64,000 nucleotides of DNA, taken from the NCBI RefSeq assembly GCF_009689585.1, contig NZ_AP018694.1, positions 3,053,001 through 3,117,000 of the forward strand, given 5' to 3'. Under the pieces are notes generated by a model. It ran no database searches. It was not told where the DNA came from and worked only from the letters and a program-made list of their open reading frames with translations. Below are positions 49,813-61,460 of the stretch, one piece after another. The first letter of the stretch is position 1. Every line of letters begins with the position of its first letter. Origin of the DNA: Aquipluma nitroreducens (GTDB lineage: Bacteria; Bacteroidota; Bacteroidia; Bacteroidales; Prolixibacteraceae). The position numbers and the translations under genes were made by a program.

Positions 49813-49909
49813 ATGACACGGACGAAAGAAACTACATGGAAACGCTTTTGGATAATCCCAAATTACGCGATAGGAATTTCTAATGCGTAGCATTAGGTAT
49901 ATTTGAAGT

Positions 49910-51020
49910 ATGGAATTCGATATAAGCTATACCAATCAAGCGATTACGCCTTGGGGCGGAATGGCGTTTTTGCGCCAAATGTTGGACAAAATAGGGTTCA
50001 AATCGCAAGTTGAAAACTGCATTGATTTGCCGAAACCGGGATCAAACAGGGGTTATTCGCCAGTATCTATCATTGAATCATTTTTAGTGAGTATTTGGTG
50101 CGGGGCAAACCGGTTTATGCACACTGAAGTTACTCGCCATGATGAAGCATTAAAGAAAATCTTTGGTTGGAAACAATCTCCGGCGCAGGACGTTTACAAA
50201 CGATATTTTGCCAAATTCACACAAGCGACCAACCAACGGGTAAGCGACCATTTTTATTCCTGGATATTCAATTCGGTACAGTTTGATAATTATACCCTTG
50301 ATTGTGATTCATCGGTATTGACCCGCTACGGGGAACAGCAAGGAGCCAAACGTGGTTACAACCCGCACAAACCGGGCAGGGCATCTCACAATCCCATTAT
50401 TGCCTTTGTTTCGGATGTTAAGCTGGTGGCAAACCTCTGGCTTAGAAGTGGCAATACCGGATCTGCCGAGGAGTTTATCCCTTTCTTAGAAGATACCTTT
50501 ACCAAGTTGCAAGGCAAAAACATTAGTCTGTTACGCCTTGACAGTGGATTCTTCGGGAAAGATGTGTTTAATTATCTGGAAGAAAAAGAGAAGCCAATCA
50601 ATTATATAGTTGCCGCACGTTTCTATGAACCAATCCAACGTATTATTGCAGGAAATCAGGTTTGGACAATACTGGATGAAGGCATCGTAATCAGCGAATT
50701 GCAATATAAAGGGCAGTTGTAGGACAAACCGCGCAGAATGGTCGTGGTCAGGCAAAAGATAGAAAAACGACCCAAAGCAGCAGGAAAAATGCTGAAGCTT
50801 TTTCAGGATGAGGATTATTACCGACAGTACCGATATTCAGCCTATATTACCAACCTGACAATGTCTGCTTCCGATGTTTGGCGGCTTTACCGTGGACGTG
50901 GCGATGCTGAAAACCGGATCAAAGAACTCAAATACGACTTTGGTTTTGATAGCTTTAACATGCAATCGTTTTTCGGAACCGAAGCGGCTTTAATTTTTGC
51001 CATGCTTGCCTATAACCTAA
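49910..51020 (+). pseudogene. IS1380-family transposase, 5' part, with internal TAG
   Basis: Frames 49910-50722 and 50738 onward are in the same register and are separated by one TAG codon (50720-50722) before DKPRRMVVVRQ; a TGG codon would restore the protein. DDE-transposase blocks are visible: YTLDCDSSVLTRYG, LLRLDSGFFGKDVF, and RGDAENRIKELKYDFGFDSF with the catalytic Glu. The true reading is cut at AYNL (51019), exactly where the CTAA duplication starts; the codons after this belong to the inserted DNA. Confidence 0.85.
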
Positions 51021-52608
51021 CCTGGACGAGCCAGAACCAAACAGGAAAAACGCGTAACTTTACTGAATGGAACTATTAACAGAAACATACAAAAGAGAGA
51101 TATCCTGCGTACTTTTATGTTTCGACAGGTTAATTCTCAGTGGCACAATGCCAGAAATATCATACAGTCAGGGGATGACAAAGTATATGTACGAAAAAGG
51201 GATCAAAATATTTGACTATCCCAGATTTGCCGAGCCATTTAAGGAAACCATCCGGGCAAATGCTGAACGTATAGCCAAAGAGAACGGTGCTGAAATAGAG
51301 TTCATCCGTAAAGCTGGTGTCAGAAAAGAATCAATCATTTCAGAAAAGATAGAAAAGCGGGGCAATCATCCCGGCATTGTCCATATCATCTCGGCCATGG
51401 AGGCATGCACTACATATAAACCCTGGCACAACAAAACCACGGGGAAAACATTTTTAAAACCGGATACCAGCAAATGTTTGCATTACTATTTCTATTTCAT
51501 TGACGAGCAGGTTGGTCTGGGCTATGTTCGCGTGCCTACCTGGTGCCCATTTCGTTTGCAGGTTTACGTGAACGGCCACAATTTGCTGGCTTCGGAAATG
51601 GGAAAGGCTGGAATTAAATATACCATGATGGACAATGCTTTTGACAGTCTGGAAGATGTAGGTAAAGCGCAAGAACTTTCGGACAATATCAGTATTGAAA
51701 AACTTCACCGCAAGTTAGATGAGTTTGCATGGCAGTTCTGTCCGGTATATAAAGACCTTAACCTCAGATATCATTGGAGTGTGATGCAAGTTGAATATGC
51801 CACCGACATTGTGTTTAAAAAACAGGAAAGTTTACAGAGAATATACAGTGAACTTGTGGCAACGGCCATACACACGGTTAAACCTGAAAACATCGCCACT
51901 TTTTTGGGACACAAACTTGACCCCCGATATGAAGGAGAAGTTGGCAACAATTACAATGTACGCATCAAAGGCAGCCGAATAAAACATACCATGGGATCGG
52001 TGTCCATAAAAATGTACGACAAGTTCAGTAAAATATTGCGAATAGAAACAACATCAAACGATATCAGTTTTTTCAAACACTTCCGGGAGGTAGTACACCG
52101 CGACGGGACAACGTCACACGAAATGGCTCCACTGAAAAAAAACATCTACAGCCTTTCCTTTCTGACAGACAACCTGAAAGCTTCAAATAGAAGATATTTG
52201 GAATTTATCTCGGCTTTCGACAACAAAGAAGTTGGCAGAAAAGGCTTGAGGATGTCACTTCATCAAAAAGTGAAAACAATCGGAACTACAAAGGGTTTAA
52301 CTTTTTCAGTATCGAGGATTTACTGGTTTTAACAGCCATCGTTCGTGGTGAGTTTAATATCAATGGGTTTAGAAACAAAAACATGCAAAAGCTACTTGGC
52401 TTCAATGGTGGAAAAATAAGCAGGTTGATTAAACGATTGAGGGTACACGGACTAATAAAAAAGGCTGCCGATTCATACAAATATTACCTCACCAAAATCG
52501 GAAAAGAAACCATCATCATGGCCCAGAAAATCAAAGAGCTGGTGCTGGTTCCAGCATATTGCTATTGAATATTATGCCAAAAAATACATCAATTTAAAAG
52601 ATAAGGTA
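51021..52608 (+). mobile_element. 1,588-bp insertion with one unrecognised gene, flanked by CTAA duplications
   Basis: CTAA occurs at 51017-51020 and again at 52609-52612. Removing one copy together with 51021-52608 restores the IS1380 transposase frame exactly (AYNL-MALFRQF). The left end is CCTGGACGAGCC and the right end AAAAGATAAGGTA; there are no terminal inverted repeats that I can see. The single gene inside is not a recognised transposase. This is direct evidence that the segment moved as a unit. Confidence 0.8.
51067..52568 (+). pseudogene. Unrecognised conserved-looking protein with C-terminal winged helix, frameshifted
   Basis: The first frame (51067-52332, 421 codons) gives a long well-structured protein: CFDRLILSGTMPEISYSQGM, IFDYPRFAEPFKETIRANAE, CLHYYFYFIDEQVGLGYVRV, ENIATFLGHKLDPRYEGEVG, IKMYDKFSKILRIETTSNDI. 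Near 52295 the sense frame shifts; the continuation reads DLLVLTAIVRGEFNINGFRN and ends with a MarR-like winged helix (GGKISRLIKRLRVHGLIKKA) at the TGA 52566-52568. The intact protein would be about 500 aa. I recall similar proteins being annotated as hypothetical in diverse bacteria, but I cannot name a family or an enzymatic motif (no clear DDE, HUH or Ser/Tyr recombinase signature). Confidence 0.65.
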
Positions 52609-52611
52609 CTA

Positions 52612-52827
52612 ATGGCCTTGTTTAGGCAGTTCCTGCTCAATTCGAAAGTTCAGCACACCCTATCAACATTGAGGTACAAGACTTTTGCAATTGGTGCCTA
52701 TTTCCAGAAAATCAACAACGAATACACCCTAAAGTTGAGCCTGAACATGAAACGAAGGGAATGGTTTGCCGGGTTGTGGAACCATTCAAATCAGGTCAAC
52801 CTGCCTTTTAATTTTTCTAATGCGTAA
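52612..52827 (+). pseudogene. IS1380-family transposase, 3' part
   Basis: MALFRQFLLNSKVQHTLSTL, then RYKTFAIGAYFQKINNEYTL and LKLSLNMKRREWFAGLW, the standard C-terminus of IS1380 transposases. It is in register with the 5' part once the insertion and one CTAA are removed. Confidence 0.9.
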
Positions 52828-52834
52828 TTTGGGA

Positions 52835-53074
52835 TAAATGGATAAGGGTCGCGCGAGTCTCCAAGGTTTATCTTTAAACTTGTTTTAGATGTTTCAATTC
52901 ACATATTTCCTGAGAAGCCGGTAACAAGTTTATATTATGACACAATATGGGAAAAGTATTTAACCCAAGTGATTTATTGGAGTGATCCTTCGGTGTAGTT
53001 TATTCCACCAAGTTTGTGCTTTTTGTGATTTAGAGATTGGCTATTCAAAACTGTCTAACACATCTTCCTTAAAA
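52835..53074. other. Intergenic stretch upstream of the attachment repeat
   Basis: No gene. The part from about 52984 resembles the DNA at 18892-18978 (GATTTAGAGATTGGCTATTC here, GATTTAGAAATTGGCTATTT there), so homology between these loci extends about 90 bp left of the palindrome. Confidence 0.5.
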
Positions 53075-53090
53075 TTGTCAACATTGACAA
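53075..53090 (+). repeat. 16-bp palindrome, copy 4
   Basis: TTGTCAACATTGACAA, a perfect 7-2-7 inverted repeat, followed by AATTTAAAGGAACATAC. Start of the left attachment repeat. Confidence 0.85.
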
Positions 53091-53211
53091 AATTTAAAGG
53101 AACATACTGGAGTGCCCTTTTTGTGCTCAAAAATGCTATAAAATGCTATATTTTGCGCACTCATATATTTTTAAATCACTAATAATCAATATGATATAAA
53201 TATGTCTTTCT

Positions 53212-53255
53212 CCCTGGCAGTCAAAAGGTCATCGGTTCGATTCCGATATTCTCCA
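53212..53255 (+). tRNA. 3' half of a tRNA gene (fragment, att core), left copy
   Basis: ATCGG-TTCGATT-CCGAT forms a T-arm, followed by ATTCTCC as the 3' acceptor strand and A as discriminator. The stretch before it can be read as an anticodon loop, CTGGCAG, with anticodon GGC, but this is uncertain. The matching 5' acceptor (GGAGAAT) and D-arm are absent, so it is a fragment such as integration into a tRNA gene leaves behind. Confidence 0.7.
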
Positions 53256-53267
53256 CTTTGAAAATCA

Positions 53268-53298
53268 AGACTTTACAGCAATGTAAGGTCTTTTTTAT
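53268..53298 (+). terminator. Rho-independent terminator after the tRNA fragment
   Basis: AGACTTTACA pairs with TGTAAGGTCT (one G-T) around GCAA-type loop and is followed by a run of T. A matching hairpin follows the right copy (63583-63612). Confidence 0.75.
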
Positions 53299-53302
53299 TT
53301 TC

Positions 53303-53336
53303 TGGAGTGCCCATCTGGAGTGCCCTTCGAGTGCCC
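53303..53336 (+). repeat. Cluster of GAGTGCCC direct repeats (possible integrase arm sites)
   Basis: TGGAGTGCCC at 53303 and 53316 and GAGTGCCC at 53329; a further TGGAGTGCCC is at 53108, and others lie in the right copy. Short direct repeats beside an att core are typical arm-binding sites of tyrosine integrases; this is inference. Confidence 0.5.
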
Positions 53337-53474
53337 TTTCAGATTTTTTGAGTGTAATTCTTAATGATTTCATGTATTGTTTGTAAGCATTCGGTAAACT
53401 CCGTTATATTTTCTTAGAAAACCAGCAACCCACTTTCAGAGGTTCTCTAAAATGTTCGGAGAACTTTGAGAGGC

Positions 53475-55157
53475 TTAGGAGATGGAACTGTTACAAATCT
53501 GGTTTTGAAGTTTGAAGTTGTGTGGAAGTAATTCGGCCAGATCCTTGCTGTAATCGTTATCGTAATTGTGGATGTTATTCAGAAAGTATACCAGCCACTC
53601 GCGGAAGTTTACTTCGCTTGCCTTGCAACAGCCCAGCATGGAATACATGATTGCTGCATTTTCGGCTGCATCGTGGTTTCCACAGAACAACCAATTCTTC
53701 CGGCCTAGGGCAATTGGACGGATAGCATTTTCTCCGAGATTGTTGTCAATTTTCAACCGACCATCCAAATGGTATCGGGTCAACTTGTGGTAAATGTTAT
53801 AGGTGTAGCGGATAGCCTTTCCGATACGCCCTTTGGGCAAAACTTTGGGGTATTCATTTAGCAGCCATTTTTCGAAGGCTACCATAATAGGATAAGCCAA
53901 GCGGGAACGAAGATCGGCGCGCTCGTCATAAGAGAGTTGCTGCTGATCGGCTTGCCTCTCCACCTGATAGAGCAGTCCTATTTGCTCCAGCGCATAAGAA
54001 GCCCTGACTTTGTCCTCTGCCAAAGCCTCTTCAAATTTACGCCGGGCATGAGCCCAGCACCCAATGGGCAGAACGCCCTTTTTGTTTTCGTAAATATCGT
54101 AAACGGCATAACCATCGGTCTGGATTACGCCTTGAAAATCCTTAAACAATTGCAGTGCGACCTTTTGTGCCCGGGAACCGTGGTCGTAATGAAAAAAGAC
54201 CAGGTTGTCCATAACCGCACGGATCATCCAGATGTATCCTTTTATCGTGGTGTGCTTTTCGTTATTTATAATCGGGATCGTTGTTTCATCGCTCTGTATA
54301 TAATCCGAAGCCAGCACCAGCTCCTTTAACCGGTAATAAGTAGGCCTGATCAGGTCGGCTACATCCTGAAACCAGCCGTTAATGGTTGCAGGTGCAATGG
54401 ATATACCCTGTTGTTTGAACATCTGGATCTGACGATAGAAAGGAAGATGGTTCACATATTTGTCGATGATAATATCAGCCAAAACACTTGCCCCGGCATA
54501 GCTTTTTGCTATGGGAAGTACGGGCATGGGAGCTGTAATGATTTGCTTTTCCACATCCTGGCTTTTATCTTTCAACGCATATTTGTGGCGGATGATCCGG
54601 CGCACATACCATCTGGCAGATTCGCGTTCCAGAACTTCTGTAATTTCCGGAGCCAGTTCTATCCAATTCTCGAGTTCAATGTGCTGTGGATAAATGTGGG
54701 TTTCTTCTCTCGGTAGACTTTCGGGCAGCGGTTTGCGTACCGGATGGTTTTTCTCCTTTACCTCTATAACACGGATGGTCTTGTACTTTTCGATCTCCTC
54801 TTTGGCACTGGTTGCAAGTTCCTTTTCTTCCGGAAGCAGGTCAAGTCCCTCAAAATCGAGCTTTCGTTGCAGGGGATCCTCATTGATATACCGTTCACTG
54901 GATTTGCCCCAGATCCTTCGCTGGAGCATCTCTATCTGTTGTTTCAGCTTGTTAATTGTTTCATCCAGTTGGCTGATTGCCCGATCTTTTTCGGTAATCA
55001 GCTGGTCTTTTCCGACAATTTGTTTTTGGTAAGTGGATCTTTCTGAATCGAAGTTTTCAAAGTTGGAAAGTTGACTTTTAAGCCTGGAAGTTTCCCTAAA
55101 AAGCCGGTCACGTTCTTCCAGAATTTGCTGTAAAAAACCCTCTTCTTCAACTGTCAT
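53475..55157 (-). CDS. tnpC: IS66 transposase TnpC
   Basis: A 560-aa transposase. Residues 1-95 include a leucine-zipper-like coiled coil (QLDETINKLKQQIEMLQRRI), then a zinc-binding/HTH part and the DDE domain: SDETTIPI (first Asp), QTDGYAVYD (second Asp), and GENAIRPIALGRKNWLFCG (Glu). Full length and uninterrupted. It is the catalytic subunit, transcribed last after tnpA and tnpB. Confidence 0.95.
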   Translation of the reverse strand: MTVEEEGFLQQILEERDRLFRETSRLKSQLSNFENFDSERSTYQKQIVGKDQLITEKDRAISQLDETINKLKQQIEMLQRRIWGKSSERYINEDPLQRKLDFEGLDLLPEEKELATSAKEEIEKYKTIRVIEVKEKNHPVRKPLPESLPREETHIYPQHIELENWIELAPEITEVLERESARWYVRRIIRHKYALKDKSQDVEKQIITAPMPVLPIAKSYAGASVLADIIIDKYVNHLPFYRQIQMFKQQGISIAPATINGWFQDVADLIRPTYYRLKELVLASDYIQSDETTIPIINNEKHTTIKGYIWMIRAVMDNLVFFHYDHGSRAQKVALQLFKDFQGVIQTDGYAVYDIYENKKGVLPIGCWAHARRKFEEALAEDKVRASYALEQIGLLYQVERQADQQQLSYDERADLRSRLAYPIMVAFEKWLLNEYPKVLPKGRIGKAIRYTYNIYHKLTRYHLDGRLKIDNNLGENAIRPIALGRKNWLFCGNHDAAENAAIMYSMLGCCKASEVNFREWLVYFLNNIHNYDNDYSKDLAELLPHNFKLQNQICNSSIS

Positions 55158-55228
55158 TTTTACTTGCTTTTGATGGCTTGAAGATACTAAATATCAACCG
55201 TATAGACAAGTTAAAAACCAAGTAAAAT

Positions 55229-55588
55229 CTACTGTTTCGAAGGTTTTTCCCATCTTTTTTTATTCATTTTTCCATCCGGTGAGGTACCCTGTACCATCAG
55301 CATCAACTCCTGCCAGCTGGCTTGAAACGTATTGGTACTTTCATCAAAAACCGGTAGTTTAAAACTGCCCGATTCCAGTTTCATGTGATAGATCACCAAA
55401 CCACCGCATTCCAAGTGCAGGATTTTCATGCTGGTACACGGGCGGTTGATAAAGATATAAACATCCCCGTCCTGCACGTTGCGCCCCATCTGGTTGGTCA
55501 CCATTCCGCTCAGGGTGTAAAAACTCCGGCGCATATCCGTTGGGTACGAATACAGGTAATACCGCATTGACGAAGTGAGGCTGAACAT
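55229..55588 (-). CDS. tnpB: IS66 accessory protein TnpB
   Basis: 119 aa with the family signature (YLYSYPTDMRRSFYTLSGMV, GDVYIFINRPCTSMKILHLE). Required for IS66 transposition in studied cases, exact role unknown. Its start lies one base after the end of tnpA. Confidence 0.92.
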   Translation of the reverse strand: MFSLTSSMRYYLYSYPTDMRRSFYTLSGMVTNQMGRNVQDGDVYIFINRPCTSMKILHLECGGLVIYHMKLESGSFKLPVFDESTNTFQASWQELMLMVQGTSPDGKMNKKRWEKPSKQ

Positions 55589-55589
55589 C

Positions 55590-55955
55590 CTACCGGCGCG
55601 TTAAAACCAACAGCGACCGTAATATCTGTGGGTCGGGCAAACCGTTCAGCTTTAAACACACCCCATTCGGATAGCTAATCTCACAGGAGATGGTTTGGGG
55701 TCTGGCTCCCGATGTTGAAAAGGTTGTCGATTGTACCTGCACCGGGGCTGGAACCCGCGACGACTGGGCTTGCCCACCATTCTCAAAAACCACCGGGATA
55801 AATCCACTTTTAGGTGGCAATAGTCCTTTTAGCTTGTGTTGCCAATAATAGAACTTAGCCTCATTCATTTGTTGATTGGCGCAATAATCCCGAATGGTCA
55901 GGCCCGATGCCAGAAACTCGTCATAGATGGCCCGGAATTTTTTCTCATTATACAT
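55590..55955 (-). CDS. tnpA: IS66 accessory protein TnpA
   Basis: About 121 aa from ATG 55955 (MYNEKKFRAIYDEFL); an upstream TTG at 55982 would add nine residues and is less likely. Helix-turn-helix-like N-terminus (GLTIRDYCANQQMNEAKFYY), as in IS66 orf1 proteins. Probably regulates or targets transposition. Confidence 0.85.
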   Translation of the reverse strand: MYNEKKFRAIYDEFLASGLTIRDYCANQQMNEAKFYYWQHKLKGLLPPKSGFIPVVFENGGQAQSSRVPAPVQVQSTTFSTSGARPQTISCEISYPNGVCLKLNGLPDPQILRSLLVLTRR

Positions 55956-56137
55956 GTCGTTTGTCTTTGAAGTAAAAAGCAAACTTATAGACTGACATGC
56001 AAAATTAGTTGACGCACTTCAGCGAATGCTTACTATTGTTTAATGGCACTCGTAATTCCCAAATAATTGTTTATAAGTTATTCCAGTCGATTTAAAGCTT
56101 CAATGCACCCAAATTTTCGATCTGGATCAATTTGAGA

Positions 56138-57529: not shown

Positions 57530-58870
57530 TTAGTTATCACCAGCAAATTGTTCTTCAAATCTTTCCATTTTCATTAATTCAGAATCAATACCTTGCTTAG
57601 GAAATACCCTGAAACCTTGCTTTACCATTTCTTTAGCAATTTGTTTGCGATCAATGTAATGTTTAGATGTAGTTTGGTAATTGCTATGCTGCATTGAAAT
57701 CCTACCATTTACGAAAAGGTCTTCCTGGGTAATGTAGGTTTTTCGAAAATGCTTCAATTGTCTGGTATAATCTCTTTTCAGTCTTTTAAAAAAGAATGTA
57801 AAGCTTTTGCTGGCGAAATCTTCAAGGTATTTGCGGTTGTTCAAAATATCAGGTTCAAATATGTAGTCAGTTGAACCGACATTGTTTTCCAGACCTAATT
57901 CATACAGAAGCTCTGATAACTCTTCACCAACAGGAACAAAAGCAAATTGGAAATCCTTTTCATCAAAGTTGTTTTGCTGTCTGTTGATCTTGATGTTAGG
58001 ACTTTGGATAAAAACAGGTTTTCCACCTTCAAAATGAATCATATTCCAACGCATCGCAAAAAGCTCAGCATTGCGCCTGCCGGTATAAGCTTTTAATCTG
58101 ATCAAATTTTTTATCCACGGCTTATACATATTGCGCTGGGTTTTCCCAATCTTTTCACAAGAATCTGTATCATTTATTACCTCAAGCAAATCGTAAAAAT
58201 CTTTTGCTGAAATACTTTCATCCGTTCCCTTTTCAGATTTAAGCTTAACCTTCTTCCACACATTCTTAATAGGATAATCTTCTTTTTCAATCAGGTAGTT
58301 ATAGAACGTTCTTAATGCTTTGATTTTCGCATTGTAGGTATAGTTGCTATAATCTTTACTTTCTAAAAATTCGCAGTACTTTCCTACAACTGAATCGGTA
58401 ATTGACTTTAGTTCTATAGCCCTGACATTGAACACATTATTTTTTAGGAACTTGACAAAATCTTGTAAAAAAGTTGTTGTTGTATTGATATGCGATTTGG
58501 CAAGATACTTTTTCAAATGATGGGGAACTTTCTCATCATTCATGTAATCAATGTATTTTGACATCAGTTCAACCAGCAAATTAGTCTTTACTGGTTTTGC
58601 TTTAGTCAACGACTTACGCAGCGGGCTTTTGACTTGCTTTTTAAAATCAGCAAATTCCAGCAATGCATCCTCAAAATTTCTTGCATTAAGAATTTTTGTT
58701 TTGCGGTCATATCCTGAGTTTGGAATCCGAATAACAGCTTTATAAGCTTGGCTTTCTAATGGATGAGTGCAGCCATTCGCTGATTTTGAATTTCCGTTGA
58801 CATCGCTTCTGCATTTCCGGCAAAACACAAAAAGCCCATTTATTTTTTGATATGGCAGGTTCTTTCTCAT
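57530..58870 (-). CDS. Tyrosine site-specific integrase
   Basis: A 446-aa integrase. The N-terminus has two Cys pairs (CRKCRSD, GCTHP) that may bind zinc, then a SAM-like core-binding domain (about 100-215) and the catalytic domain: Arg in AYTGRRNAEL, KHFRKTYI (KxxR in place of HxxR), His in MQHSNYQT and the nucleophile Tyr in TTSKHYIDRK. Likely drives integration at the tRNA 3' end found at both borders of the element. Its ATG overlaps the stop of the small gene upstream, so both form an operon. Confidence 0.9.
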   Translation of the reverse strand: MRKNLPYQKINGLFVFCRKCRSDVNGNSKSANGCTHPLESQAYKAVIRIPNSGYDRKTKILNARNFEDALLEFADFKKQVKSPLRKSLTKAKPVKTNLLVELMSKYIDYMNDEKVPHHLKKYLAKSHINTTTTFLQDFVKFLKNNVFNVRAIELKSITDSVVGKYCEFLESKDYSNYTYNAKIKALRTFYNYLIEKEDYPIKNVWKKVKLKSEKGTDESISAKDFYDLLEVINDTDSCEKIGKTQRNMYKPWIKNLIRLKAYTGRRNAELFAMRWNMIHFEGGKPVFIQSPNIKINRQQNNFDEKDFQFAFVPVGEELSELLYELGLENNVGSTDYIFEPDILNNRKYLEDFASKSFTFFFKRLKRDYTRQLKHFRKTYITQEDLFVNGRISMQHSNYQTTSKHYIDRKQIAKEMVKQGFRVFPKQGIDSELMKMERFEEQFAGDN

Positions 58871-59156: not shown

Positions 59157-59894
59157 TTATTCCTTGTTGATACTTTTTTTCTTTCTCATTGATTCTCCGT
59201 GTAATTCGATGCGGTGAGCTTGATGAATCAGCCTGTCCAATACTGCATCAGCAATGGTTTTTTCTCCAATAATATCATACCATCCCTGAACCGGTATTTG
59301 TGAAGTAACGATAATGGAACCCTTATTGTGTCGGTCTTCAATGATTTCCAATAGCGTTATCCTGTTTTGACTATCGAGTGCCTGGAGTCCAAAATCATCG
59401 AGTATAATAACATCCTGCCTTTCGATTTTCGCTAGCTCCTTCAAGTATGAGCCATCGGCTTTTGCCATTTTTAACCTGGAAAACAACTTCGATGTATTGA
59501 AGTAATTTACCCGGTAGCCCTGGATACATGCCTGATAACCCAGTGCCGTTGCCAAATAACTTTTACCCACGCCGGTACTTCCTGTGATTAAAACGTTCTC
59601 GTTCTTCTCTACGAACTCACACTCTCCAAGTCGTAAAATAAGGTTGCGTTCCAGGTTTCGTGATTGATCGAAAGTGATGCTTTCGATGTTTGATTTGTAA
59701 TGGAACTTGGCATTTCTAATTAGTCTCTCTATTTTTCGGTTGTGACGTTCGTCCCATTCTGCATCAATAATCATGGACACAAACTGATCGATGGTGTAAT
59801 GGTCTGTTTTCCCGGTTTCGACTGCAGTTTTAAATGCACCATGCATTCCGGAAAGCTTCATTTGTCTCATTTTTGTCAACGTTGATTCATTCAT
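59157..59894 (-). CDS. istB: IS21 helper ATPase IstB
   Basis: A 245-aa DnaC/IstB-type ATPase: Walker A GSTGVGKSYLA (about residues 107-117), Walker B VIILDDFG (about 170). It remodels target DNA and helps the IstA transposase. Full length, 18 bp downstream of istA. Confidence 0.95.
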   Translation of the reverse strand: MNESTLTKMRQMKLSGMHGAFKTAVETGKTDHYTIDQFVSMIIDAEWDERHNRKIERLIRNAKFHYKSNIESITFDQSRNLERNLILRLGECEFVEKNENVLITGSTGVGKSYLATALGYQACIQGYRVNYFNTSKLFSRLKMAKADGSYLKELAKIERQDVIILDDFGLQALDSQNRITLLEIIEDRHNKGSIIVTSQIPVQGWYDIIGEKTIADAVLDRLIHQAHRIELHGESMRKKKSINKE

Positions 59895-59912
59895 AATGAT
59901 TTGATTTTAAAT

Positions 59913-61460
59913 TTATTTGTAATAGTTCTTCCCTCGTATGTTGTTGTGTTCGGGCAATTCCGGATCTTCTGTTGTCTCATCCTTAATCATATCCAGGTTG
60001 TTTTCAAGGATGTTTTGTATGGCTTTAAAACTGTAGGTTCCAAAGTCAAGAGCACGTTTGCAGGCATTGATAAGTCTTTGTTTGCCAACCTTTTTCTCAA
60101 ACGAAAGTATCCCCATGCAACTTTTAAACGCCTGCTCAGGATGGTTTCGGCTTTCAATGATCTTAAAGATATATTCCCCGGCAACCGGGTCAATACTGTT
60201 TGCCCAATTGATAAACCGGGGGGCAGTCCAATCGGTTACAAATTGATGGGTGCTCGCTAAATGTTCGGGTGTGGTTGTGTAGCTGTAAAGTGCGTAGTCC
60301 CGGGGATGGGTAGCCAACCGATTGTATTTAAAGTAAATCTCGACCGTTGTTCTGGTGTACATCACCTTCACCTTTTTGCGGATGTATTGGTACGGCACGC
60401 TATAAAAATGTTTGTCGCAACTAAGCTGCACATGACCATTTTGCATGACCGTTGCCTGTGCCTGATACTTGATCTCAAAGCGTTGGATGGGCAGTGGCGA
60501 CAGTTTGCCCTTCTCGATGTCATTGTATAGCTCAAAACGTGTGTATGGACGACCGGTGAGCTTTTTGTTGTTGTGTGCATCCAACAGGTCGCCGATGCGA
60601 TCGTTCAGTTCCGCAAGGGAGAAAAACGTTTCGTCCTTCAGTGCAGCATAAATCCTGCGGTATAGTATTTTAACAGCACCTTCAACTAACGATTTGTCCC
60701 GTGGTTTATAAGCTCTGGCTGGTAGAATAGTGGTTTCGTAATGTTCTGCCAGATCTGCCAGTGTTTCGTTGATGGTGGGCTCAAAACGGCTGCTTTTTAT
60801 CACCGCTGACTTTAGATTGTCCGGAACAATTGCTGCCGGAACGCCTTCAAAAAAACGCATGGCATTTTCTACCGATACAACAAAATCTTCCTTCTTTTGG
60901 CTGGCCGTGGCTTCGGCATAGGTATATTGGCTTGCCCCTAAAACAGCAACAAAAAATTCTACTTCACTTACCTCTCCTGTATCTTTTTCAACCACAGATA
61001 GCTTTTTGCCTGCATAATCAACAAACATCTTGTCGCCTGCCTTGTGGTTCATGTGCATCACCGGATTTACCTTCTGGCTCCACAGTTTGTAATGCTCCCG
61101 GAACTGGGAGCTTTGATAACCCCCGGGGTATTTTTTAATGTACTCTTCCCACATACACTGGCCCGTGACGCCAACCCGTTTGAGCTCCCGTTCCATATGA
61201 GGGAAAAACTCATATAGCTTTTGTAATCGCGGGCTAATAGACTCTTCAGGAGGGTGTGAAAACAACGTTTCCAACTCAAGGTCAGTCTTTTGATTGATCT
61301 CTTCAATGGTCAACCCCTGAACTTCAAAAAGGGAAATATACTTCTTTACTGTATTCCTTGATAAGGATAAATATTGGCTTATAAACAGCTTGCTTTTCCC
61401 GCTGCAATGCAACTTAATCGCTTTTCTAATCTTACTCATGTCCGTTAATTTATTTGCCAT
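59913..61460 (-). CDS. istA: IS21 transposase IstA
   Basis: A 515-aa transposase with an N-terminal helix-turn-helix (SQYLSLSRNTVKKYI) and a DDE core: MFVDYAGK, VPDNLKSAV and KDKSLVEGAVK provide Asp, Asp and Glu. Full length with no stops, so probably active. Confidence 0.95.
   Translation of the reverse strand: MANKLTDMSKIRKAIKLHCSGKSKLFISQYLSLSRNTVKKYISLFEVQGLTIEEINQKTDLELETLFSHPPEESISPRLQKLYEFFPHMERELKRVGVTGQCMWEEYIKKYPGGYQSSQFREHYKLWSQKVNPVMHMNHKAGDKMFVDYAGKKLSVVEKDTGEVSEVEFFVAVLGASQYTYAEATASQKKEDFVVSVENAMRFFEGVPAAIVPDNLKSAVIKSSRFEPTINETLADLAEHYETTILPARAYKPRDKSLVEGAVKILYRRIYAALKDETFFSLAELNDRIGDLLDAHNNKKLTGRPYTRFELYNDIEKGKLSPLPIQRFEIKYQAQATVMQNGHVQLSCDKHFYSVPYQYIRKKVKVMYTRTTVEIYFKYNRLATHPRDYALYSYTTTPEHLASTHQFVTDWTAPRFINWANSIDPVAGEYIFKIIESRNHPEQAFKSCMGILSFEKKVGKQRLINACKRALDFGTYSFKAIQNILENNLDMIKDETTEDPELPEHNNIRGKNYYK

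Follow-up and report, generated by a model that had tools for sequence, protein, structure and literature searches.

An IS1380 transposase gene in the chromosome of Aquipluma nitroreducens is interrupted by a segment of DNA that carries a single gene of its own, and this locus raises the question of what the segment is and what moved it there. The window analysed here, a stretch of 64,000 nucleotides, comes from a genome (G000) that consists of a single contig of 5.71 Mb. The known transposases of bacteria are DDE, HUH and DEDD enzymes and the tyrosine and serine recombinases. We consider it probable that what interrupts the gene is an autonomous insertion sequence, here in a decayed copy, which depends for its movement on a Rep_trans-like tyrosine transposase and probably travels as single-stranded DNA, and that it represents an apparently unrecognised family of small mobile elements of several bacterial phyla.

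The segment entered the IS1380 gene precisely

The interrupted gene matches the IS1380 family model NF033539 with a score that falls short of the curated cut-off owing to the split, and the host element is bounded by 22-nt inverted repeats (49855-49876 and 52814-52835, by repeat search; Table 1). Immediately after a CCTA, whose CTA is a Leu codon of the IS1380 gene in an alignment with IS1380 relatives, the window reads ACCTGGACGAGCCAG...GATAAGGTACTA. Joining the flanks with a single CTA gave 170 open codons over the junction, against 73-118 at offsets of -2, -1, +1 and +2. In three IS1380 relatives (L101, L102 and L103, the last with stops elsewhere; a further one, L100, is too decayed to tell), the residues AYNL are followed directly by M-S/A-L/I-FR, as in the rejoined window, which indicates that the host gave exactly one CTA. 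That the segment was inserted as a unit, as the earlier note had proposed, is borne out both by the restored frame and by these relatives, which read straight through the insertion point. The edges proposed there, 51021-52608 with a 4-bp CTAA, describe the unit given in Table 1 once a single CTA is assigned to the element. The idea that CTAA was a 4-bp target duplication had to be abandoned: only CTA recurs at both edges, as a fixed target and right-end sequence, and CTAA appeared twice because the left A is the element's own and the right A is the preferred flanking base. A recurrent 4-bp duplication, which had been expected at the edges of other copies, was not found there either.

Table 1. 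Features of the insertion and its host element (window coordinates).
Feature	Position	Strand	Basis or remark
Host IS1380 element	49855..52835	+	inverted repeats, NCBIfam/Pfam matches and frame continuity
IS1380 transposase pieces	49910-50722, 50738-51019, 52612-52827	+	NF033539, Pfam DDE_Tnp_1_4
Target CCTA, kept in left flank	51016..51019	+	element starts directly 3' of CCTA
Inserted element, ACCTGG to GGTACTA	51020..52611	+	1592 bp
Left-end hairpin CTGG-ACGAG-CCAG	51022..51034	+	covariation
AACCAAA then xAGG	51035..51045	+	AGG complementary to target CCT; candidate guide
Main open part of gene	51067..52332	+	421 codons; core with Rep_trans-like motifs; frameshift near C-terminus
C-terminal gene part in another frame, winged helix	52191..52568	+	ArsR/MarR-type helix matches of relatives; fold matches
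Right end TATTATGCCAAAAAATA...GATAAGGTACTA, terminal ACTA	52570..52611	+	conserved in 15 aligned right ends

A second insertion into a coding gene was found in a Cryomorphaceae MAG (L011), where a one-CTA join gave a 1042-codon frame with 218 codons before the site and 824 after it; the longer side has weak alpha/beta-hydrolase matches. Frame agreement alone has a chance of about 1/3 per site, and the IS1380 alignment is the stronger evidence of the two, pointing to exactness at the level of residues. At both sites where the outcome was readable, the IS1380 gene and L011, exactly one CTA was gained. The other 17 joined sites, many of them seemingly intergenic, yielded no convincingly restored gene, and the right ends of L030, L108, L135 and L138 in this joining test were guesses. 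No clean orthologous empty site was found; genome G900 has the locus without the element, its intergenic DNA being diverged. A second IS1380 copy in the same genome (starting at 462506) was rejected as an empty site, as it diverges before the insertion point.

Other features of the region were recorded alongside. The host IS1380 has an internal stop at window 50720-50722 that is absent from the second copy (G000:C1:462506-463515), which is 90-95% similar to it. Beside the IS1380 are ORFs (53475-55982 and 59157-61460) resembling what we take to be IS66 and IS21 gene sets, and together with the IS1380 they would form a cluster of mobile elements. By eye, a stretch at about 53205-53258 looks like the 3' part of a tRNA, and ARAGORN reported no gene in 52900-53500; some 4 kb away, an ORF at 57530-58870 resembles a tyrosine recombinase. 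The tRNA-like stretch and the recombinase-like ORF are possibly the attachment-site remnant of an integrated element.

Related elements have copies at unrelated sites and in several phyla

The window copy is the only one found in its own genome. In a finished genome, G302, we found four 1661-bp copies that differ by 0-19 mismatches and lie in four different flanks. Each of the four (L041-L044) has ATA at both edges and sits within a AATTCATA-type repeat; the repeats at these loci are of AATTCATA/ACTTCATA type and are seemingly landing sites. In two MAGs, G395 and G396, the gene ends at contig ends, as is expected of a repeated element: the former has three left ends and two right ends in addition to a complete copy, the latter two left ends and three right ends in addition to the copy in L004. 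At two positions (L007:3299 and L010:5548) the right-end ACTA runs directly into CGTTTTTTC..., the left end of an element from another, distant subfamily, whose gene in L010 is about 22% identical; this arrangement suggests nested or tandem insertion with the right-end CTA as target.

In the Bacteroidota sample, which includes the element's own genome, a search with the window protein was positive in 6 of 395 genomes, one with a 25-member profile in 6 of 385, and the phylum sample of an Acidobacteriaceae MAG gave 27 of 297 genomes. Among 72,556 plasmid records, three queries found 11, 10 and 12, with Rhodococcus, Mycobacterium, Mycolicibacterium, Paraburkholderia and Caballeronia as hosts. A like edge plan is seen in relatives from MAGs of Bacteroidota, Ignavibacteriales and Acidobacteriota and from Burkholderiales plasmids, those of Actinomycetota being more distant. 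A phage origin was rejected: there were 0 matches in 50,697 phage records, and one search of viral contigs gave a single partial relative, L048, where three others gave no relative at all. The proteins of L004 (a Bacteroidales MAG) and L005 (an Ignavibacteriales MAG) are 99.8% identical, which is due to recent transfer or a binning error.

The Paraburkholderia (L144) and Caballeronia (L139) plasmid elements, whose mutual comparison places the edges with an uncertainty of one base, have CTA at both edges, a hairpin GAGGC-TCC-GCCTC directly after the left CTA, and the right end AAGGAATCTA. Left ends in Rhodococcus come after TACTA, and their right edge is not pinned. A Mycobacterium riyadhense plasmid (L137 and L140) carries two tandem relatives and one more near other transposases; all are annotated as hypothetical proteins, with left ends apparently after CTA. 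The homologue on a Paraburkholderia phytofirmans plasmid (L040) bears the annotation 'ArsR family transcriptional regulator', for which its winged helix is the probable reason. All annotated plasmid members examined were named either hypothetical proteins or ArsR regulator, which shows that annotation of insertion sequences misses such elements.

A CTA target and fixed edges define the element

A scan of the genome contigs yielded 24 related loci, all in MAGs and mostly in Bacteroidota, with the others in Ignavibacteriales, Balneolaceae and Acidobacteriaceae MAGs. A right end of the form ...TACTA lay downstream of the gene in 17 of them, a left end was present in 15, and both in 11. Loci missing an end are truncated, on short contigs or diverged; the 7 without the ...TACTA right end are truncated or diverged there, and in L012 the left end is present and no right end could be recognised.

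Left junctions were collected by one rule, a hairpin with at least 3 of 4 pairs followed by ACC, with no target sequence required. The 41 distinct junctions obtained, not all of them independent (four of the CATA cases are the four copies of G302), read CCTA in 32 cases, CATA in 5, and CTTA, CCCA, CACA and CTGT in one each, the CTGT junction (L138, minus strand) being an apparent chance match. CCTA occurs in the window at 0.0018 per position. At the other edge, 27 right ends were listed with a pattern that demands TACTA, at least 2 of them chance matches (L111 and L163); 21 have A as the base 3' of the CTA, 3 have C and 3 have T. Variant targets are matched by the right end in G302 (ATA/ATA) and in L135 (ACA/ACA), the latter a single copy with its right edge set by eye; in L013 the left edge reads TTA and the right edge CTA. 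Delimited copies measure 1590-1854 bp, with space for one such gene. Insertion takes place 3' of CTA or a close variant, in an orientation fixed relative to the left hairpin.

Taken together, recurrent edges in unrelated flanks are not due to chance, and mobility and the edges are well supported. A mobile unit with an uncharacterised transposition enzyme, the central proposal of the earlier note, is upheld by the fixed edges, the unrelated flanks, the near-identical copies at 4 loci of one finished genome and the lack of a match to any known transposase family. The context of the homologues examined agrees with it: their flanks are unrelated, and the edges hardly vary. The other option raised there, a passenger moved in trans, appears unlikely, as gene and edges travel together in several phyla.

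The left end forms a hairpin beside a candidate guide

As had been noted from the window alone, the element is without terminal inverted repeats: none of at least 14 nt was found at its ends, and the longest inverted-sense match between its first and last 60 bases is at most 4 nt. The left end has a short hairpin instead. In 17 distinct 13-nt left-end hairpins from several subfamilies, 97.1% of the cells are paired and 14 are changed on both sides; with L010, L119 and L134 (minus strand) added, the 20 distinct hairpins have 96.3% paired and 17 changed on both sides, figures to be read with the caveat that one collecting rule demanded 3 of 4 pairs and an earlier pattern fixed only the 3' arm. 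The compensatory changes are C-G/G-C at pair 1 and C-G, U-A, A-U and G-C at pair 2. The score was not reached by a single one of 500 shuffles, and sliding the pairing destroys the signal. Hairpins of other lengths (L113, L114, L115, L137 and the distant type L010/L090) were left out of this alignment, for which all hairpins must be equally long.

The hairpin is followed by a conserved AACCAAA and then, as a rule, by xAGG. Of the 41 left ends, 35 carry the complement of the first three target bases in the 10 nt that follow AACC; setting aside the evident chance match leaves 34 of 40. The chance expectation is about 10% per triplet, and the left ends are not independent, most sharing ancestry. 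Two variant lineages covary with their targets, L013 with CTTA and TAAG and G302 with CATA and ATG. The six left ends without the complement are three with CCTA, two of L119 (CATA and CCCA) and L135 (CACA). We regard guide pairing as a possible lead, not a result.

No comparable structure was found at the right end: RNAalifold gave no pairs in 15 right ends, and the helix named there did no better than shuffles. Several right ends fold singly, of which only L013 folds better than all its shuffles. A structured RNA or intron-like element was rejected, there being no Rfam match at E 1 in 50900-52750.

The protein has a core with Rep_trans-like motifs and a winged helix

According to the earlier note, the sole gene is frameshifted, encodes a winged helix at its C-terminus and shows no signature of a known transposase or recombinase; our analysis agrees on each point. 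The window copy is probably dead because its gene is frameshifted. Among Pfam, NCBIfam, PHROGs, PADLOC-DB and PDB sequences, the core matched no family of known function and the better matches were to C-terminal winged helices; no transposase, DDE, HUH or recombinase match appeared in Pfam, NCBIfam or the other libraries searched. Weak matches of the core were to DUF6037 (E 0.01-0.06) and, for one member only (L032), to phrog_9887 of unknown function (E 5.6e-4). Across 25 diverse members 13 positions are invariant, including E243, Y317, K319, R325 and E327 (25/25 each); K315 is K in 24 and R in 1, D20 is present in 24 of the 24 members with a residue there, and D247 in 18 of 25.

AlphaFold2 modelled the whole protein poorly (pLDDT 67); for the core alone, with 17 rows, the model was good (pLDDT 86.1, pTM 0.84). 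With short strands omitted, the order of the core is strand, helices, four strands and helix, then strand, helices and four strands, then two strands and helix. In a Foldseek search of the core against the PDB nothing fell below E 0.001 and TM-scores were low; the TATA-binding protein (TBP) structure 1mp9 ranked 5 (E 0.027), below glycyl-tRNA synthetase and other low-probability matches, and no HUH enzyme was recognised among the 50 PDB fold matches listed. The poorer whole-protein model gave 5 matches below 0.001 among viral predicted structures, again with low TM-scores, the top one being A0A2N9QVX7 (E 2.6e-4), an entry listed there without a name.

The sheet of the Rep_trans enzymes is described as TBP-like with two five-strand modules (PMC4797284). 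The nucleophile Y191 lies there on strand 10 with conserved R189 and K193, R212 and E214 lie on strand 11, R140, D142, A144 and D146 on strand 6, and D46, D142 and E214 hold the metal. In our model, K315-x-Y317-x-K319 lies on strand 312-319 and R325-x-E327 on the next strand (323-330); Q241-x-E243-x-A/S245-x-D247 is part of strand 236-250, which follows the first module, and D20 belongs to the first strand of all. Counting long strands, by eye and in the model only, these motifs match the positions of D46, RxD142, R189-x-Y191-x-K193 and R212-x-E214. A rolling-circle review gives the Rep_trans motifs as N' D, I RxD, II T/SxY/ExG, III YxKxxE and IV W/LxRxE (PMC5714925). The element protein has N' in D20, the YxK of III and the RxE of IV; motif I reads QxE in place of RxD, and neither motif II nor the E of III could be recognised.

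At the level of profiles, the Rep_trans family PF02486 was not among the 21 Pfam families matched by the 25 members (E 0.1), and hhalign of the element profile A5 with a weak Rep_trans member (L151) gave a probability of 0.10 on a scale of 100. The 480-aa protein L151 (G000:C1:1828655-1829104, minus strand) matches Rep_trans weakly, at a score that does not reach the Pfam cut-off, and no other Rep_trans match came from 296 sampled genomes of the phylum; no relatives of it were found in viral contigs, and it is perhaps an inovirus- or plasmid-like initiator. We infer from the modelled strand order and the placing of these motifs that the enzyme may be kin to Rep_trans.

A proposed transposition mechanism and its alternatives

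From these features we infer a scheme for catalysis, the single-stranded circle, strand choice and the role of the winged helix. The transposase, of about 500 aa, would consist of a TBP-like, Rep_trans-type tyrosine nuclease core (about residues 1-385) and the C-terminal winged helix, and would bind the left-end hairpin on one strand. Y317, with a metal held by D20, E243 and E327, would cut at the left end, directly 3' of its bordering CTA, and a second cut would fall 3' of the CTA that terminates the right end. A swap of the two 5'-phosphotyrosine ends would then reseal the donor with one CTA, and the same exchange would release a single-stranded circle with the junction CTA|, which would be cut in turn and joined to a new target, probably single-stranded too, at a point 3' of (C)CTA(A). 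The single-stranded nature of the intermediates is suggested by the hairpin and the type of enzyme. A positive GC skew is taken to mark the leading strand; the orientation of the G302 copies against sampled GC skew is 2:2, with no sign of strand preference, and the GC skew of G000 was too noisy for a reading of strand bias.

A related route, IS91-like copy-out by a rolling circle, would have the same Rep_trans-like enzyme nick the right end, cut the displaced strand at the left end and paste it at CTA. Rep_trans enzymes do start rolling-circle replication (PMC4797284), and IS91 is likewise described as lacking inverted repeats and duplications (PMC5714925); the same CTA signal stands at both edges, however, and is precise in the delimited copies, and we judge this route unlikely.

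Rather improbable as well is a DDE-type element that duplicates a preferred 3-bp CTA in double-strand cut-and-paste, for which IS5/PIF-Harbinger elements, with their duplicated 3-bp target, offer the comparison. A net gain of one copy, with CTA next to the element on either side, is what a 3-bp duplication would leave, and the ATA/ATA of G302 and ACA/ACA of L135 resemble duplications too. Such an element is nonetheless hard to reconcile with the lack of terminal inverted repeats, with a left hairpin that is not mirrored at the right end, and with L013, whose left TTA differs from its right CTA; moreover, the gene is without a DDE match in Pfam or NCBIfam and has an invariant Tyr together with invariant acidic residues on predicted strands.

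That the gene is non-mobile or regulatory, or a passenger of another element, as its C-terminal winged helix and the product name 'ArsR family transcriptional regulator' in Paraburkholderia might suggest, is scarcely credible given the conserved edges, the CTA-specific insertion, the four copies in one genome and a gene that moves with its own ends.

The preferred reading thus remains an autonomous insertion sequence with a Rep_trans-like tyrosine transposase. Whether it also stands for a separate transposase class, a TBP-fold, non-HUH tyrosine enzyme moving a single-stranded insertion sequence whose target is chosen partly by base pairing, we regard as a tentative and rather doubtful proposition; if true, target choice could change with the element segment beside the left hairpin. 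Among the matches listed in a literature search that covered neither preprints nor most subscription papers, no title or abstract opening dealt with such elements or with a Rep_trans transposase. An insertion-sequence superfamily with an enzyme beside the Rep_trans initiators would, if true, add a further origin of transposition and would link plasmid replication to mobile elements outside the HUH fold. With fixed CTA edges, a compact size of 1.6-1.9 kb and a proposed catalytic tyrosine, the element is directly testable.

Comparison with known systems

The IS200/IS605 family is not known to have inverted repeats or random target duplication, and our element shares with it a fixed short target, 3' of which it inserts, and the lack of a random duplication. 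IS608, a member of the family along with ISDra2, inserts 3' of a fixed short sequence in the left flank, TTAC, and passes through a circular junction (PMC5934647); it also resembles our element in a hairpin near the end and in possible base pairing between element and target. The two differ in that our element has no HUH Y1 TnpA and no TnpB, and an enzyme of about 500 aa. Unlike in IS608, only 2 nt separate its hairpin from the left edge. Its candidate guide lies 3' of the hairpin, whereas that of IS608 lies 5', and both cleavage sites end in CTA, compared with TTAC and TCAA in IS608.

IS91/ISCR elements have in common with ours a transposase of rolling-circle-initiator type and the absence of inverted repeats and duplication, as described for IS91 (PMC5714925). 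The IS91 enzyme belongs to the HUH group and has two catalytic tyrosines, whereas our gene has no such family match. That review refers to HUH enzymes as transposases, Rep_trans being listed there for plasmids and phages.

Rep_trans initiators and relaxases (PF02486; pT181 Rep and the Tn916 relaxase) share with the element enzyme a strand order in the model compatible with the TBP-like two-module sheet, KxYxK and RxE, a QxE and a D placed on the matching strands, and the absence of HUH. The element enzyme differs in giving no Pfam or hhalign match, in the Glu for Asp of motif I, in its unrecognised motif II and E of motif III, and in being encoded by a stand-alone unit the size of an insertion sequence. 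A further parallel is Rep-Arvir (DUF7845), whose initiator is shown to be a distant Rep_trans relative with a MarR-like winged helix and whose matches include A0A2N9QVX7, named there a viral TBP (PMC13107129). Both proteins would combine a TBP-fold catalytic part with a MarR-like winged helix, and they have this viral fold match in common; PF25227 (DUF7845) was not among the 21 Pfam families matched by our 25 members. By that account Rep-Arvir drives the replication of viruses and plasmids, whereas the elements described here are insertion sequences in chromosomes and plasmids.
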